The notes beneath the pieces are model-generated. The model ran no database searches. It was given only the letters and a program-made list of their open reading frames with translations, and had not been told where the DNA came from. The position numbers and the translations under genes are program-made. DNA of 39,230 nt from contig JAPPNO010000015.1 in assembly GCA_028873845.1 (NCBI GenBank), forward strand, positions 1 to 39,230, written 5' to 3'. Every line of letters begins with the position of its first letter. Within the stretch, counting starts at the first letter, position 1. Source of the stretch: Gemmatimonadota bacterium. GTDB taxonomy: Bacteria > Gemmatimonadota > Gemmatimonadetes > Longimicrobiales > Gaopeijiaceae. Positions 9,368 to 25,762 of this stretch are shown here, piece after piece.

Positions 9368-9457
9368 TCAGTCGTACCCCGAGAAGCGGTAGTGGGATGG
9401 CTCGCCCACCCGTCGCCGCGGCAAAACCAGGGACGCGAGCATGTCGGATTGGGACAC
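9368..9457 (-). pseudogene. Short frame ending at vapC, possible antitoxin 3' remnant inside repeats
   Basis: A 29-codon frame (GTG 9457, or ATG 9442) ends in GEPSHYRFSGYD with its TGA touching the vapC GTG. The adjacency is what one expects of the 3' end of a vapB-type gene. The first half of the frame is translated 61-bp repeat. The last 12 codons, outside the repeat, may be all that is left of the antitoxin. I do not recognise the peptide, so it may also be chance. Confidence 0.3.
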
Positions 9458-9578
9458 AGGCCCGATCAGCCCGCCGCCGCGGCAAAACCAGGGACGCGAG
9501 CATGTCGGATTGGGACACAGGCCCGATCAGCCCGCCGCCGCGGCAAAACCAGGGACGCGAGCATGTCGGATTGGGACA
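9410..9578. repeat. 61-bp tandem repeat, about 2.75 copies
   Basis: Units start at 9410, 9471 and 9532. Each begins CCGCCGCCGCGGCAAAACC and continues through CATGTCGGATTGGGACA. Copies 1 and 2 are full length and nearly identical (one difference, CCGTCG for CCGCCG). Copy 3 stops matching after about 47 bases, just before the end of the coxD-type gene. The period is exactly 61, not a multiple of three, so it is not a protein repeat. It fills the place where the vapC antitoxin should be. Confidence 0.9.
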
Positions 9579-21783: not shown

Positions 21784-22710
21784 CTACTTGATCCGAATGA
21801 CGTAAATCTCCCGGTGTTCTATGGGGCGGTCGCCGTTGGAGTCGAAAGCGATCCTGGTCCCGTCCGGGGACCACGCGGGGTGCTGGTCGTGCCCACTGTG
21901 GTTCGTCACCTGCTCCACTCCGCTTCCGTCCGCGTTCATCACATGGACTTTGGCGTTGCCGTCGTGGCTGTTGGATGAGAAAGCGATTCTGGTCCCGTCC
22001 GGGGACCACGCGGGGTGCCCAAGCCACCCCTCCCAGAGGTTCGTGTTCGCCAGGGGCTCAACGTCGCTTCCGTCCGCGTCCATCACATAAATCTCGGCGT
22101 GGCCGTCGTCGTGGCGGAAGTTGAAAGCGATCCTGGTCCCGTCCGGGGACCAAGCGGGGTGCATAAGAAACGCTTCGCTGAAGTTCGTCAGGCGCTCAAC
22201 ATCGCTTCCGTCCGCGTCCATCACATAGATCTCGGAAGTGTACTTCCCATCGATGACGTCGGCGCGGTGGAAAGCGATCCTGGTCCCGTCCGGGGACCAC
22301 GCAGGGCTGTTGCTGCCCTCGTCGTGGTGCGTCAGGCGCTCAACGTCGCTTCCGTCCGCGTCCATCACGTAGATCTCATGGTAGCGGTCCCCAGCGAGTC
22401 CGCTGATTGCGAAAGCGATCCTGGTCCCGTCCGGGGACCACGCGGGCGACGCAGCCGACCCGCGGCCGAAGTTCGTCAGGCGCTCAACGTCGCTTCCGTC
22501 CGCGTCCATCACATAGATCGAACTATGGTAGTGGCGGTGGGACCTGAAAACGATCCTGGTCCCGTCCGGGGACCACACGGGCTCCTCCCCCCCGAGTTTC
22601 GTCAGCTGCGCGAAAGCCGAGTCGGGCGGTTCCACCGGGCTTTCGCAGGCGGCGGCCGGCAAGACCACAACCGCGGCGAAGAGGCTTGCTGAGGAGGGAA
22701 ACCGGGTCAT
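21784..22710 (-). CDS. TolB-like beta-propeller lipoprotein (PD40 repeats)
   Basis: 308 aa from ATG 22710. The signal sequence MTRFPSSASLFAAVVVLPAA ends in AAC, a plausible lipidation cysteine. Six repeats follow, each with PAWSPDGTRIAF and most with EIYVMDADGSDVERLT, the WD40-like PD40 blade found in TolB and in tricorn-like proteins. The repeats are unusually alike. Six blades make a closed propeller without the TolB N-terminal domain, so it is not TolB itself. It precedes the peptidase gene and may be co-transcribed. No catalytic residues are evident; a binding role is inferred. Confidence 0.85.
   Translation of the reverse strand: MTRFPSSASLFAAVVVLPAAACESPVEPPDSAFAQLTKLGGEEPVWSPDGTRIVFRSHRHYHSSIYVMDADGSDVERLTNFGRGSAASPAWSPDGTRIAFAISGLAGDRYHEIYVMDADGSDVERLTHHDEGSNSPAWSPDGTRIAFHRADVIDGKYTSEIYVMDADGSDVERLTNFSEAFLMHPAWSPDGTRIAFNFRHDDGHAEIYVMDADGSDVEPLANTNLWEGWLGHPAWSPDGTRIAFSSNSHDGNAKVHVMNADGSGVEQVTNHSGHDQHPAWSPDGTRIAFDSNGDRPIEHREIYVIRIK
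21787..22605. repeat. Six near-identical coding repeats of the PD40 blades
   Basis: The phrase ATCCTGGTCCCGTCCGGGGA recurs almost unchanged at spacings of about 120-145 bp inside the TolB-like gene, with GTCCGCGTCCATCACATA between. The DNA identity is higher than needed to keep the protein motif, which suggests recent repeat expansion or gene conversion. Confidence 0.85.
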
Positions 22711-22837: not shown

Positions 22838-23017
22838 GAAGCGCCGTTCGCCACCGGGAGCGAGGCCGCCGAGTCGCCCGGAAGCCAGTGCCGCATTCGC
22901 GAAGGTCCGCCCGTAGCCGCGGGCGAAGGTCATCACGACAAGGTCCGTTGAGAAGGTCACCACCTGGCAGGGGACGTGCAGGACCGGTCCCTGGGTGAGG
23001 AAGGGGGTTGGGCGGGC
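22838..23017 (-). pseudogene. soxG 3' fragment (degenerate duplicate)
   Basis: A 60-residue stretch from ARPTPFLTQGPVL to PGGERRF matches the C-terminal 60 residues of the intact soxG at 25133-25762 with about 48 of 60 identical by my count. The first 145 or so residues of SoxG are missing. The reading frame continues on both sides into unrelated sequence and has no proper start. It lies in the same orientation as soxG, about 2.3 kb away, next to the left direct repeat. Confidence 0.85.
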
Positions 23018-23118
23018 CGATGTGGGGTGGAATTCTGGCTCCGCGCGGGGGGTCTCGGCCAGACCGGGACGAGGGGTCGGGTGGATCCGTACCGGCACCG
23101 CAACCGCCGGATTCTCCA

Positions 23119-23207
23119 CCGATTTTATTTGATCGGAAACCTGAAGAAAGCTCTCGAAATCCCGTAAATCATTGATTCACAACGATTTATTTATTTGACG
23201 GTTATTT
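23119..23207. repeat. Direct repeat, left copy, flanking the AlbA_2 gene
   Basis: 89 bp, about 89% identical without gaps to 24835-24923. It is AT-rich, unlike its surroundings, starts CCGATTTTATTTGATCGGAA and ends TTGACGGTTATTT. Inside, AAATCATTG and CAACGATTT form an imperfect 9-bp stem around ATTCA. The rest of the 23018-23326 gap has no recognisable gene. Confidence 0.9.
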
Positions 23208-23326
23208 CCATTTTGCGATGTTCCGGGGCGGCCGACACCCGTTCCAAGTGGCCGACCGAGTCCGTCCCTCGCTAGAATGTGTCCATCCTTGACGACTCGG
23301 ATTCCCCTTGACGAACGGACCGCCCG

Positions 23327-24799
23327 GTGACGCCTCCTCGCTCATCCCGCTACCTCGTCGACCTGGTCCGTCGGCTCAGCTCCCTCCCCCACGAGACGGA
23401 GTGGGTGGAGTTCAAGGAGAACTACCGGAATCCGGAGCAGGTCGGCGAGTACGTCTCGGCCCTCGCCAACTCGGCCGCCCTGCACGGCGAGTCACGCGGC
23501 TACGTCCTGTGGGGGGTGAGGAACAGCACCCACGAACTGGTGGGGACGGATTTCGTTCCGGCTGCCGCAAAGAAGGGGAACGAACTCATCGAGCCCTGGC
23601 TAGCGCGGCTTCTCGAGCCGCAGGTCGATTTCCAGTTTCATCAAGTCGATGTGGACGGATCGCGGGTGGTCCTGCTAGAGGTCGGACGAGCTACGCGCCA
23701 GCCGGTGGCCTTCAAGGGTGTCGAGTTCATCCGCATCGGCAGCTCGACTCGAAAGCTGCGGGGCCACCCGCCCAAGCAACAGCAGCTCTGGCGTGTCTTC
23801 CTGGCTGCACCCTTCGAAGACGGCATCGCGGCCGAGCATCTCTCCGGCCGGGACGTCCTGCAGGCATTGGACTACCCGTCGTACTTCCAACTGCTTGAGG
23901 TGCCGGCGGCGGATGGACGGAGTGCCATCCTGGAGGCTTTGGCACACGAGCAGCTCATCCTGCGGAACCAGGCCGGCGGCTATGACGTCACCAACCTGGG
24001 CGCCATTCTCTTCGCCCGTCGTCTGGCGGACTTCCCCGGCCTCAGGCGGAAGGCCGTGCGTCTGATCCGCTATCGGGGCTCCGGGCGCATGGACGCGGAG
24101 CGCGAGCAGGAAGGCGGCAAGGGCTACGCGAGCGGCTTCCACGGCCTGGTGAGCCATGTCCGCGCCTGGACTCCGTCCAACGAGGTGCTGGGCCCCGCGT
24201 TCCGTCGCGAGATACCGATGTTCCCGCCGGCTGCGATCCGCGAACTCGTCGCCAACGCGCTGATCCACCAGGACTTCGCGACGACCGGCGCGGGGCCGAT
24301 GATCGAGATATTTGACCGTCGCCTGGAGATCAGCAATCCCGGCGAGCCGCTGATCGACACCAAGCGCTTTCTGGACTCGCAGCCCCTTTCCCGGAACGAC
24401 AGGCTGGCGAACCTCATGCGCCGTCTGAAGATCTGCGAAGAGCGGGGCACCGGGATCGACAAGGTGGTTGACGCGGTGGAGACCTTCGCCCTTCCGGCAC
24501 CCGTGTTCGAGAGGCCTCCGGGATTCACCCGGGCCTTGCTGTTCGCCCACAAGCCCTTCCGCGAAATGGACCGAGGCGAGCGGCTCCACGCCTGCTACAT
24601 GCACGCCTGCCTGCGTCACGTGACCCAGAAGCCCATGACGAACTCATCGCTGCGGACGCGCTTCGGGATCGCGGACAGGAACGCCTCGACGGCATCGCGC
24701 GTCCTCGCCGACGCCGTGGACGAGGGGTTGATCGTGATCGCGGATCCGGCGGCGGGCCCGCGAGCGCGGCGCTACCTGCCGTTCTGGGCCAAGGCGTGA
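23327..24799 (+). CDS. AlbA_2 (Schlafen-type) / HATPase_c_4 putative regulator
   Basis: 490 aa from GTG 23327. The N-terminal region has the AlbA_2/Schlafen pattern: ETEWVEFKENYRNPEQVGEYVSA as ETEWVEFKEN plus following helix, then GYVLWGVRN and the central VAFKGVEFIRIGSSTRKL. The C-terminal half matches the ATP-binding domain of RecG-like 'divergent AAA_4' regulators: AIRELVANALIHQDF, then LEISNPGEPL and RLKICEERGTGIDKV, a GHKL-type site. A winged-helix tail ends it. These proteins are called transcriptional regulators or RNA-binding proteins, and several occur in defence islands; the function of this one is unknown. It is bounded by 89-bp direct repeats as a one-gene cassette. Confidence 0.82.
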   Translation: MTPPRSSRYLVDLVRRLSSLPHETEWVEFKENYRNPEQVGEYVSALANSAALHGESRGYVLWGVRNSTHELVGTDFVPAAAKKGNELIEPWLARLLEPQVDFQFHQVDVDGSRVVLLEVGRATRQPVAFKGVEFIRIGSSTRKLRGHPPKQQQLWRVFLAAPFEDGIAAEHLSGRDVLQALDYPSYFQLLEVPAADGRSAILEALAHEQLILRNQAGGYDVTNLGAILFARRLADFPGLRRKAVRLIRYRGSGRMDAEREQEGGKGYASGFHGLVSHVRAWTPSNEVLGPAFRREIPMFPPAAIRELVANALIHQDFATTGAGPMIEIFDRRLEISNPGEPLIDTKRFLDSQPLSRNDRLANLMRRLKICEERGTGIDKVVDAVETFALPAPVFERPPGFTRALLFAHKPFREMDRGERLHACYMHACLRHVTQKPMTNSSLRTRFGIADRNASTASRVLADAVDEGLIVIADPAAGPRARRYLPFWAKA

Positions 24800-24834
24800 T
24801 CCGGGGCCCGCGCCACCCTCGTCGCCGTTCGGTG

Positions 24835-24923
24835 CCGATTTTATTTGATCGGAAACCTGAAGAAAATCCTTGAAATCTCGTAAGTCGTTGATTCACAACG
24901 ATTTGTTTTCTTGACGGTTATTT
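24835..24923. repeat. Direct repeat, right copy, flanking the AlbA_2 gene
   Basis: 89 bp matching 23119-23207 with ten substitutions by my count. It is followed by another TTATTTGATCGGAAA (24918-24932), the opening of the repeat unit, which implies a tandem period of 77 bp at this end. The internal stem here is AAGTCGTTG / CAACGATTT around ATTCA. The gap 24800-25132 holds this repeat and two hairpins and no recognisable gene. Confidence 0.9.
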
Positions 24924-25009
24924 GATCGGAAAGGGGTTTCGAGGGGGCGGACCGTCGGTCTGTGGGGCCCGCTGGATCCGTTGGGACGGCGAGAGACGGG
25001 AGAGCTACC

Positions 25010-25045
25010 TGGTCACTGACCAAGTTGAAGCATGAGCAGTGACCA
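25010..25045. other. Inverted repeat downstream of soxG
   Basis: TGGTCACTG (25010-25018) and CAGTGACCA (25037-25045) are a perfect 9-bp dyad around an 18-base loop. TGACCAAGT also repeats directly inside it. No U-rich tract follows in either direction, so it may be a processing or protein-binding site rather than a terminator. Confidence 0.5.
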
Positions 25046-25074
25046 AGTCGGTCCGGCGACGGCCACGCCCTCTG

Positions 25075-25132: not shown

Positions 25133-25762
25133 TCAGAGAGCGGCCATCGCCTCGACGAAGCGCCGCTCGCCCCCGGGGTTCAGGCCGACCGGTCCGCCGG
25201 ACGTCAGGGCCGCGTCGGCGAAGGTCCGCCCGTAGCCGCGAGCCAGGGTCATCACCACCAGGTGCGCCGCGAAGGTGACGATCTGACAGGGCACGCGCAG
25301 GACCGGTCCCTGGGTGAGGAAGGGGGTGGGGCGGGCCGGATCGAAGAGGTCGAGGGCAGTGACCTGTTCCAGGACATGTGGGACTCCGGGACCGGCGAAG
25401 GCCAGCATGCAATGTCCGTCGGTGGTTTCGGTGCAGCCGGAGACCTGCGGCGTCGGAGGTGGTGGCTCTTCCCCCAGGTGCCAGATCGCGACCTGGGTTC
25501 GGTTCATGCGGTTGATGACGAGCGGTCCGTGAATACCGACCTGGCCGTACTCTTCGGGCACGGGCAGGTCCATGGGCGTTTGGGCTGCGAGATGCCGGTC
25601 CTGGAAGTCCCAGCGCCGCCGGTGGCTCAGATCGACGAGCCACGGACCCGGGTGGTCATCCTCGTCTTCGTAGCGCAGGACCACGGTCCATCCGTCGCGC
25701 AGTTCGGTCTCGGCGGGCGCGCCGTCGAAGGGGGCGGGGGAACGGCGGAAGGGAAGTCTCAC
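25133..25762 (-). CDS. soxG: Sarcosine oxidase gamma-type subunit
   Basis: 209 aa from GTG 25762, overlapping the soxA stop (GTGA). The C-terminal part VVMTLARGYGRTFADAAL corresponds to the conserved FxRSYG-type motif of SoxG. In heterotetrameric sarcosine oxidase the gamma subunit packs against alpha near the folate domain and has no cofactor of its own. It ends the operon soxB-soxD-soxA-soxG, the canonical order. A partial copy lies at 22838-23017. N-methylglutamate dehydrogenase subunit D is homologous and cannot be excluded. Confidence 0.85.
   Translation of the reverse strand: MRLPFRRSPAPFDGAPAETELRDGWTVVLRYEDEDDHPGPWLVDLSHRRRWDFQDRHLAAQTPMDLPVPEEYGQVGIHGPLVINRMNRTQVAIWHLGEEPPPPTPQVSGCTETTDGHCMLAFAGPGVPHVLEQVTALDLFDPARPTPFLTQGPVLRVPCQIVTFAAHLVVMTLARGYGRTFADAALTSGGPVGLNPGGERRFVEAMAAL

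Follow-up and report, generated by a model that had tools for sequence, protein, structure and literature searches.

We describe a probable two-part mobile module in which the gene of a Schlafen-like DNA-binding ATPase is coupled to a phased cis element of its own; the module would act as a switch and be moved passively. The module was recognised in the window, the 39,230-nt stretch of DNA of a Gemmatimonadota bacterium that we analysed (contig JAPPNO010000015.1), and then in relatives of the gene from many phyla. The pairing of a Schlafen-like gene with a phased 3′ iteron element appears to be undescribed: a search of open-access papers found no published description of such an element.

A repeat search of the window found exactly two gap-free copies of an 89-nt direct repeat (23119-23207 and 24835-24923), which are 89% identical and have a GC content of 34-36% compared to 68% for the window. 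They enclose a single gene (23327-24799, forward strand, GTG start) encoding 490 aa. A third, partial repeat, the 15-nt TTATTTGATCGGAAA at 24918-24932, lies 77 bp past its counterpart in the right copy. The first-pass annotation of this DNA had described two AT-rich, gap-free repeats of about 89% identity around one gene and the start of a further unit after the right copy with a 77-bp period, and both descriptions are borne out. It had missed the iterons, an outer duplication of soxG sequence and the matching arrangement in the sister species G007. The features of the locus are as follows.

22838-23019, reverse strand: outer direct repeat, left copy, a soxG-like 3′-end fragment (about aa 140-205), from the repeat search
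23119-23207, forward strand: left (5′) element copy, with iterons TTGAT at 23129 and TTGAC at 23195
23327-24799, forward strand: SLFN_AlbA_2/HATPase_c_4/winged-helix gene, from Pfam, AlphaFold2 and Foldseek
24835-24932, forward strand: right (3′) element, with iterons TTGAT at 24845, TTGAC at 24911 and TTGAT at 24922
24882-24904, forward strand: core dyad of the right element, AAGTCGTTG-ATTCA-CAACGATTT, from the sequence and from covariation over 28 copies
24911-24926, forward strand: iteron pair TTGACGGTTATTTGAT, the sole TTGAYNNNTATTTGAY match in the 4.05-Mb genome
25157-25338, reverse strand: outer direct repeat, right copy, within the full-length soxG-like gene (25133-25762), from the repeat search

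The iterons of the right element are spaced by 66 and 11 bp. Those of the left copy, which lacks the third iteron, are 66 bp apart (6 x 11), and its dyad, AAATCATTG-ATTCA-CAACGATTT, occupies the corresponding place 1716 bp upstream of the right-element dyad. The outer duplication spans 182 bp at 82% identity and corresponds to the 3′ end of the soxG-like gene, which is complete on the right side. G007 has the identical arrangement, outer soxG duplication included, and its protein is 99% identical. A search of the window's own genome (4.05 Mb, 137 contigs) returned the two copies at E values of 1.2e-40 and 4.3e-27 and a next match at 1.09, and thus no further copy of the 89-bp repeat. Just right of the right element (25002-25053), we also noted TGGTCACTG and CAGTGACCAAG motifs in an inverted, operator-like arrangement.

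The protein is a member of the DIP2311-type SLFN_AlbA_2 + HATPase_c_4 + wHTH family. Pfam matches SLFN_AlbA_2 (4e-20, 73 bits, cut-off 25.3) and HATPase_c_4 (1e-19, 70.7 bits, cut-off 26), and the domain order is an N-terminal SLFN_AlbA_2 domain (residues ~23-144), a GHKL-type ATPase module (HATPase_c_4, 321-402) and a C-terminal winged helix. In the AlphaFold2 model (pLDDT 90), the winged helix consists of helices 439-446 and 450-465, the latter being the recognition helix, and strands 469-471 and 483-485. Foldseek matched DIP2311 (3lmm, E 6.8e-21) and the N-domains of SLFN11/13/14, together with weak matches of the winged helix to MarR-type wHTH domains. Domain order and fold are the same as in the DIP2311-type (PDB 3lmm) "ATP-binding protein / putative transcriptional regulator", a family for which we found no described downstream iteron element. 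No model for the window protein was found in PADLOC or NCBIfam, and no recombinase or transposase fold was recognised in it by Pfam or Foldseek. Among 49 proteins, the Schlafen acidic residues E23 and E28 are invariant. At the third acidic position, placed by the spacing in SLFN11, 37 proteins have D, 11 have N (the window protein among them) and one has G.

The right repeat copy is the gene's 3′ element, which is conserved downstream of orthologues of the gene in bacteria, archaea, plasmids and phages. We sampled orthologues from many phyla (39-61% identity) and found that most carry, 3′ of the stop codon, an element laid out as 11-bp-period iterons, a core and iterons again; elements of this class lie behind the AlbA_2 gene family in more than ten phyla. 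Most orthologues have a single element, on the 3′ side, and in more distant subfamilies it is absent or the iterons are upstream. In the window, two clusters of 11-bp iterons (TTGAY-NNNTATTTGAY) surround the core. The pair TTGAY-N6-TTGAY is present within 400 bp downstream of 31 of 53 distant orthologues and upstream of one of the 53, with about 0.2 expected; the background elsewhere within those loci is 0.0038 per 400 bp. Other loci have variant iterons (TATGTGATGG, ATGTAACGGG, TTGCTTGCACG), and the two clusters usually share one variant. While cores differ widely among phyla, the iterons and the gene are conserved. Because the iteron pair TTGAYNNNTATTTGAY has one match in the whole genome, the protein has no scattered regulon of that exact form, and the idea of a regulon of scattered sites was dropped.

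Some relatives depart from this layout. In L162 and L163 (Bacillales, Bacilli), which are distant, iterons of 11-12 bp overlap the promoter, and codon-phased repeats of similar sequence (VGDK) lie within the gene. In L105 and L117, one AlbA_2 gene is followed by two successive elements, which looks like the loss of a second gene.

Two clusters were measurable in 56 of 76 loci, at distances of 44, 54-55, 66-68, 75-78, 85-89, 97-100 and 107 bp. For 41 of 49 non-redundant loci, the distance is within 1 bp of a multiple of 11 (Rayleigh p ~5e-15 at a period of 11.0, R 0.82), and none of 5000 random sets was phased as strongly. The phasing persists in the unfiltered distances and is absent from control pairs inside genes or further downstream. 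Since the distances are whole multiples of about 11 bp, both clusters come to lie on one face of the helix despite differing core lengths. This result favours a protein-DNA complex and disfavours an RNA.

The iteron sequence also varies together with the recognition helix. Columns 453 and 454, both in this helix, are in the top three of all 490 columns for splitting TTGAY from TGTNA loci. Tyrosine at 453 is found in all 8 TGTNA loci and in none of the 33 TTGAY loci, and the rule that Y453 goes with TGTNA and other residues with TTGAY has no exception where both could be scored. At 454, proline accompanies TGTAA (4 of 4 loci, plus L140 by eye) and S or T accompanies TGTGA or TGTCA (4 of 4). On a tree built without the helix region, iteron class and Y453 each change four times, always together, and TGTAA and P454 three times each. 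Covariation of recognition helix and repeat is a trait of operators, here with few independent switches: an independent-pairs test had 2 well-supported pairs, a number with which p 0.05 is unreachable, and column 381 also separates the iteron classes fully, so that shared ancestry supplies part of the signal. Among 15 later loci with the canonical helix (no Y453), 13 have TTGAY pairs and none is contrary. A Desulfosarcina plasmid with the helix residues YS has the iteron TGTGAY, as predicted, and the loci newly taken from plasmids and viral contigs agree with the pairing.

On the strength of the 11-bp phasing, the helix-iteron covariation and the single occurrence of the iteron pair in the genome, we consider it most probable that the repeats serve the protein as binding elements of its own. 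The first-pass annotation had offered, as an alternative, that they are sites through which the protein controls its own gene. The binding-site part of that proposal is strongly supported by these three lines of evidence. With the conserved site 3′ of the gene, autoregulation of the usual promoter type is not implied.

Next, we looked at where the repeat occurs in Gemmatimonadota. A sequence model built from twelve copies detected 31 strong copies in all. Genomes with such copies numbered 11 of 23 in the genus, 17 of 121 in the family and 20 of 395 in the phylum sample; by our count, about 22 of the 31 copies stand next to an AlbA_2 gene or to what remains of its 3′ end. Among related Gemmatimonadota, the unit repeat-AlbA_2-repeat occupies about ten different loci, in intact or decayed form. 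For example, it lies between a DPPIV peptidase gene and soxG (window, G007, G006, G002 and G017), next to an ADP-ribosylglycohydrolase gene in G005, next to a truncated fic gene in G003, between an epimerase and an AAA_14 gene in G068, and next to an amidohydrolase gene in G184 and G181. Two element copies surround the gene in G000, G007, G006, G068, G184, L106 and L165. G184, which belongs to another family, has an 80% identical protein between its two copies, and in G017 the gene is deleted between both repeats with just its last codons left. Solo copies also occur at unrelated loci.

The presence of the unit or its decayed form at about ten different loci means that it has moved, and judged by these genome comparisons it is mobile in evolutionary terms. 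To this extent the "undescribed mobile cassette" of the first-pass annotation stands. What the comparisons do not support is a recombination system that has the repeats as its ends: the 3′ copy is alone in most phyla, a recombinase is not encoded, and homologous or illegitimate recombination could account for the moves. Orthologues that always occur without the repeats, which the annotation had named as evidence against a cassette, are not what we found.

Two further arrangements were seen among these copies. In L082 (G005:C276, 1-2246), a Dam-type methylase gene and an HNH-type gene replace the middle of AlbA_2 between two elements, and the 5′ leader and 3′ end of AlbA_2 are retained. At different loci in G003:C215, G007:C120 and G021 (L020, L084, L083), the element is followed by a common stretch of about 40 bp, AACGACATCTCCG-TTTACATAATGTC-GTTGACA, which in G003 leads straight into a fic gene seemingly without its N-terminus.

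In two unrelated settings, homology between loci begins at the edge of the element. G068 (element-AlbA_2-element-AAA_14) and G064, G061 and G065 (a single element before AAA_14) differ in their left contents, and homology begins exactly at the left edge of the element and runs rightwards. Likewise, homology (88-96% identity) between a Providencia plasmid (AlbA_2-element-hsdR) and plasmids of Citrobacter and Vibrio (other genes-element-hsdR) sets in exactly at the AlbA_2 stop codon and extends rightwards. For an E. coli operon that lacks the element, the junction is at the hsdR start codon.

Flanking direct repeats lie within 900 bp at 12 of 56 orthologue loci compared to 2 of 197 control positions. 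These repeats are in part copies of the element and in part the 3′ end of a host gene, namely soxG, malQ, asparaginase or a radical-SAM activase (the last three named from translations, asparaginase also from the Pfam match of a homologous gene at another locus). The duplicated host sequences span 100-180 bp at several loci, and their copies differ by 8-24%. A doubling of host sequence around the insert, as with the 3′ end of soxG and in the 12 of 56 against 2 of 197 positions, is the trait of insertion with a long target duplication. Relatives have an intact soxG locus. Collections of E. coli, plasmid and phage sequences were examined for a base-exact empty allele of the module, and no clean empty site was found: in E. 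coli, the copy is carried by a P4-like satellite whose left side varies, and the Providencia restriction operon has the edge breakpoint with no clean empty site. A comparison of the Providencia plasmid (L171, 3694-8707) with L206 delimits an insertion of about 5 kb that carries AlbA_2, the element, hsdR and a SprT gene. It sits in the terminator hairpin behind traN, with the ends TTATTAGAGCGTGTT and AACACGCTCTAATAA; in many related plasmids, this site is empty.

The description of the enclosed gene as a possible defence or regulatory gene fits its genomic context. Orthologues immediately precede hsdR in several type I restriction operons and lie between M and S on an Aliarcobacter plasmid, before a phospholipase-D-type anti-phage gene in Desulfosarcina and beside a retron in the E. 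coli P4-like satellite. Others are present in phages, and one on a Cereibacter plasmid is annotated MloB. There are also stand-alone copies, that of the window among them, for which the downstream gene is convergent or unrelated; the element is therefore not simply the promoter of the next gene. In Comamonas (L126), AlbA_2 and the element are found between two Hsp70-related genes in what resembles one operon.

The sequences compared show a conserved element that is phased, covaries with the helix and is unique in the genome, as well as the multiple loci and the edge breakpoints; from these we infer binding, a complex, a switch function and a way of moving. The C-terminal winged helix would read the 11-bp iterons, and the protein would assemble on the two iteron clusters, on the same DNA face and 4 to 10 helical turns apart, to form one nucleoprotein complex directly behind its own gene. 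In this lineage, the module has a second copy of the element in front of the gene and has been inserted at about ten loci. The complex is most likely a switch or roadblock for transcription through or next to the element, and in type I restriction operons it would be located just before hsdR. A switch or roadblock is favoured by the winged helix, by the place before hsdR and by the element being kept there after the gene has been replaced; this function is less certain than binding on two clusters. The module most likely moves passively, through homologous and illegitimate recombination in which the elements provide the homology. We favour this reading, a switch bound to DNA and carried about by ordinary recombination, over a new recombination system.

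Breakpoints exactly at the element edge could also reflect active recombination there, with the element as a recombination or attachment site worked by the AlbA_2 protein itself, or with its help by another enzyme. We regard this as unlikely, although several observations would fit: the gene lies between two element copies in several lineages, solo elements occur at unrelated loci, homology ends at the element edge in both settings, protein and element coevolve, and duplicated 3′ ends of host genes (soxG, malQ, asparaginase, radical-SAM activase) flank the gene. Against it, the one 3′ element of most orthologues provides no second end, no recombinase fold is recognised, the 8 to 24% difference between duplicated flanks is unlike a fresh target duplication, and 11 of 49 proteins, that of the window included, have N in place of D as the third Schlafen catalytic acid. 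It is similarly doubtful that the phased element and the ATPase make up a self-sufficient mobile unit that swaps defence genes before restriction nucleases and elsewhere. The two ends and the transposase or recombinase of a transposon or insertion sequence were not found, the 3′ element being alone in most orthologues, and we found no evidence for a transposon or integron. Very unlikely is an integron- or dif-like cassette, in which the dyad AAGTCRTTG-N5-CAACGACTT would be the core site of a trans-acting tyrosine recombinase and various genes would travel. The polarity of gene then site, the occurrence of sites both solo and paired, and several defence-type genes directly 5′ of the site would suit it. 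Nevertheless, the attC consensus (RYYYAAC/GTTRRRY) is absent by eye in the aligned copies, the core is unconserved across phyla, unlike the iterons and the gene, and with about 22 of 31 Gemmatimonadota copies next to AlbA_2 or its relic the cargo is essentially one gene. No integrase was found among the neighbouring genes examined in the window. A multi-cargo integron-like cassette had been our first reading, from the defence genes 5′ of the repeat, and was dropped once most copies turned out to lie beside AlbA_2 or a remnant of its 3′ end.

The repeats could also be passive. As a terminator or non-coding RNA of the gene, the element would have the hairpin as its conserved feature, a reading that we consider very unlikely. 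In its favour, the imperfect stem AAATCRTTG-ATTCA-CAACGATTT reported for each repeat by the first-pass annotation is real, and this dyad covaries across 28 related copies (16 cells changed on both sides versus 5.7 when shuffled and at most 9 when slid); in this lineage a T-rich stretch follows the dyad, and the element is 3′ of the gene. The hairpin reading is nonetheless unsupported by RNAalifold, which does not choose the hairpin, and by Rfam, where no family matches the element. In addition, the phased 11-bp iterons and the recognition-helix covariation indicate DNA binding, and the core sequences diverge strongly among phyla. The 23-bp dyad had no exact match in viral contigs. Finally, two short or MITE-like repeats might have trapped one gene by chance. 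Solo copies at unrelated loci agree with this, but trapping by chance cannot explain why elements of one class lie behind one gene family in more than ten phyla, which already refutes the strict form and makes the composite scarcely credible.

The DNA-bound switch can be compared with several known systems. Accessory ORFs of type I restriction loci, such as MloB, have the position of several orthologues, between hsd genes and mostly before hsdR, whereas the window copy stands alone; to our knowledge, the description of these ORFs does not cover the 3′ element or its phasing. The operators of restriction controller proteins likewise combine a winged-helix or HTH protein with adjacent cognate short repeats and a nuclease gene downstream. 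The sites of the module differ in being 3′ of the regulator gene, in forming two clusters at whole helical turns and in occurring also in unrelated contexts. Integron cassettes and direct-repeat-ended transposons share the order of gene then site and a gene between direct repeats, but the module is without integrase, transposase or attC consensus and usually has a single element. Insertion with a long target duplication has been described for restriction-modification genes (PMC3031569, PMC3874152). The module gene is likewise surrounded by host direct duplications of 100-180 bp; their copies, however, differ by 8-24% and are mostly 3′ ends of genes, and the inner 89-bp repeats are the module's own element and not target sequence.

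If this reading holds, a large family of "ATP-binding proteins" gains a predicted DNA target that can be read from any genome as the element behind the gene. Residues 453-454 would provide a recognition-helix code that predicts the iteron, making the function of a Schlafen-like bacterial protein directly testable. Accessory ORFs of type I restriction loci might be explained as a portable module just before the nuclease gene, and the element could serve as a marker of module movement among chromosomes, plasmids and phages. The recombination-site reading, if true, would mean a single-gene mobile element of a new kind.

The window holds two other repeats, a tandem array with a 144-bp period inside a PD40 beta-propeller gene (21844-22519) and a near-perfect tandem repeat of a 61-bp unit (x 2.8, 99% identity) at 9409-9578.
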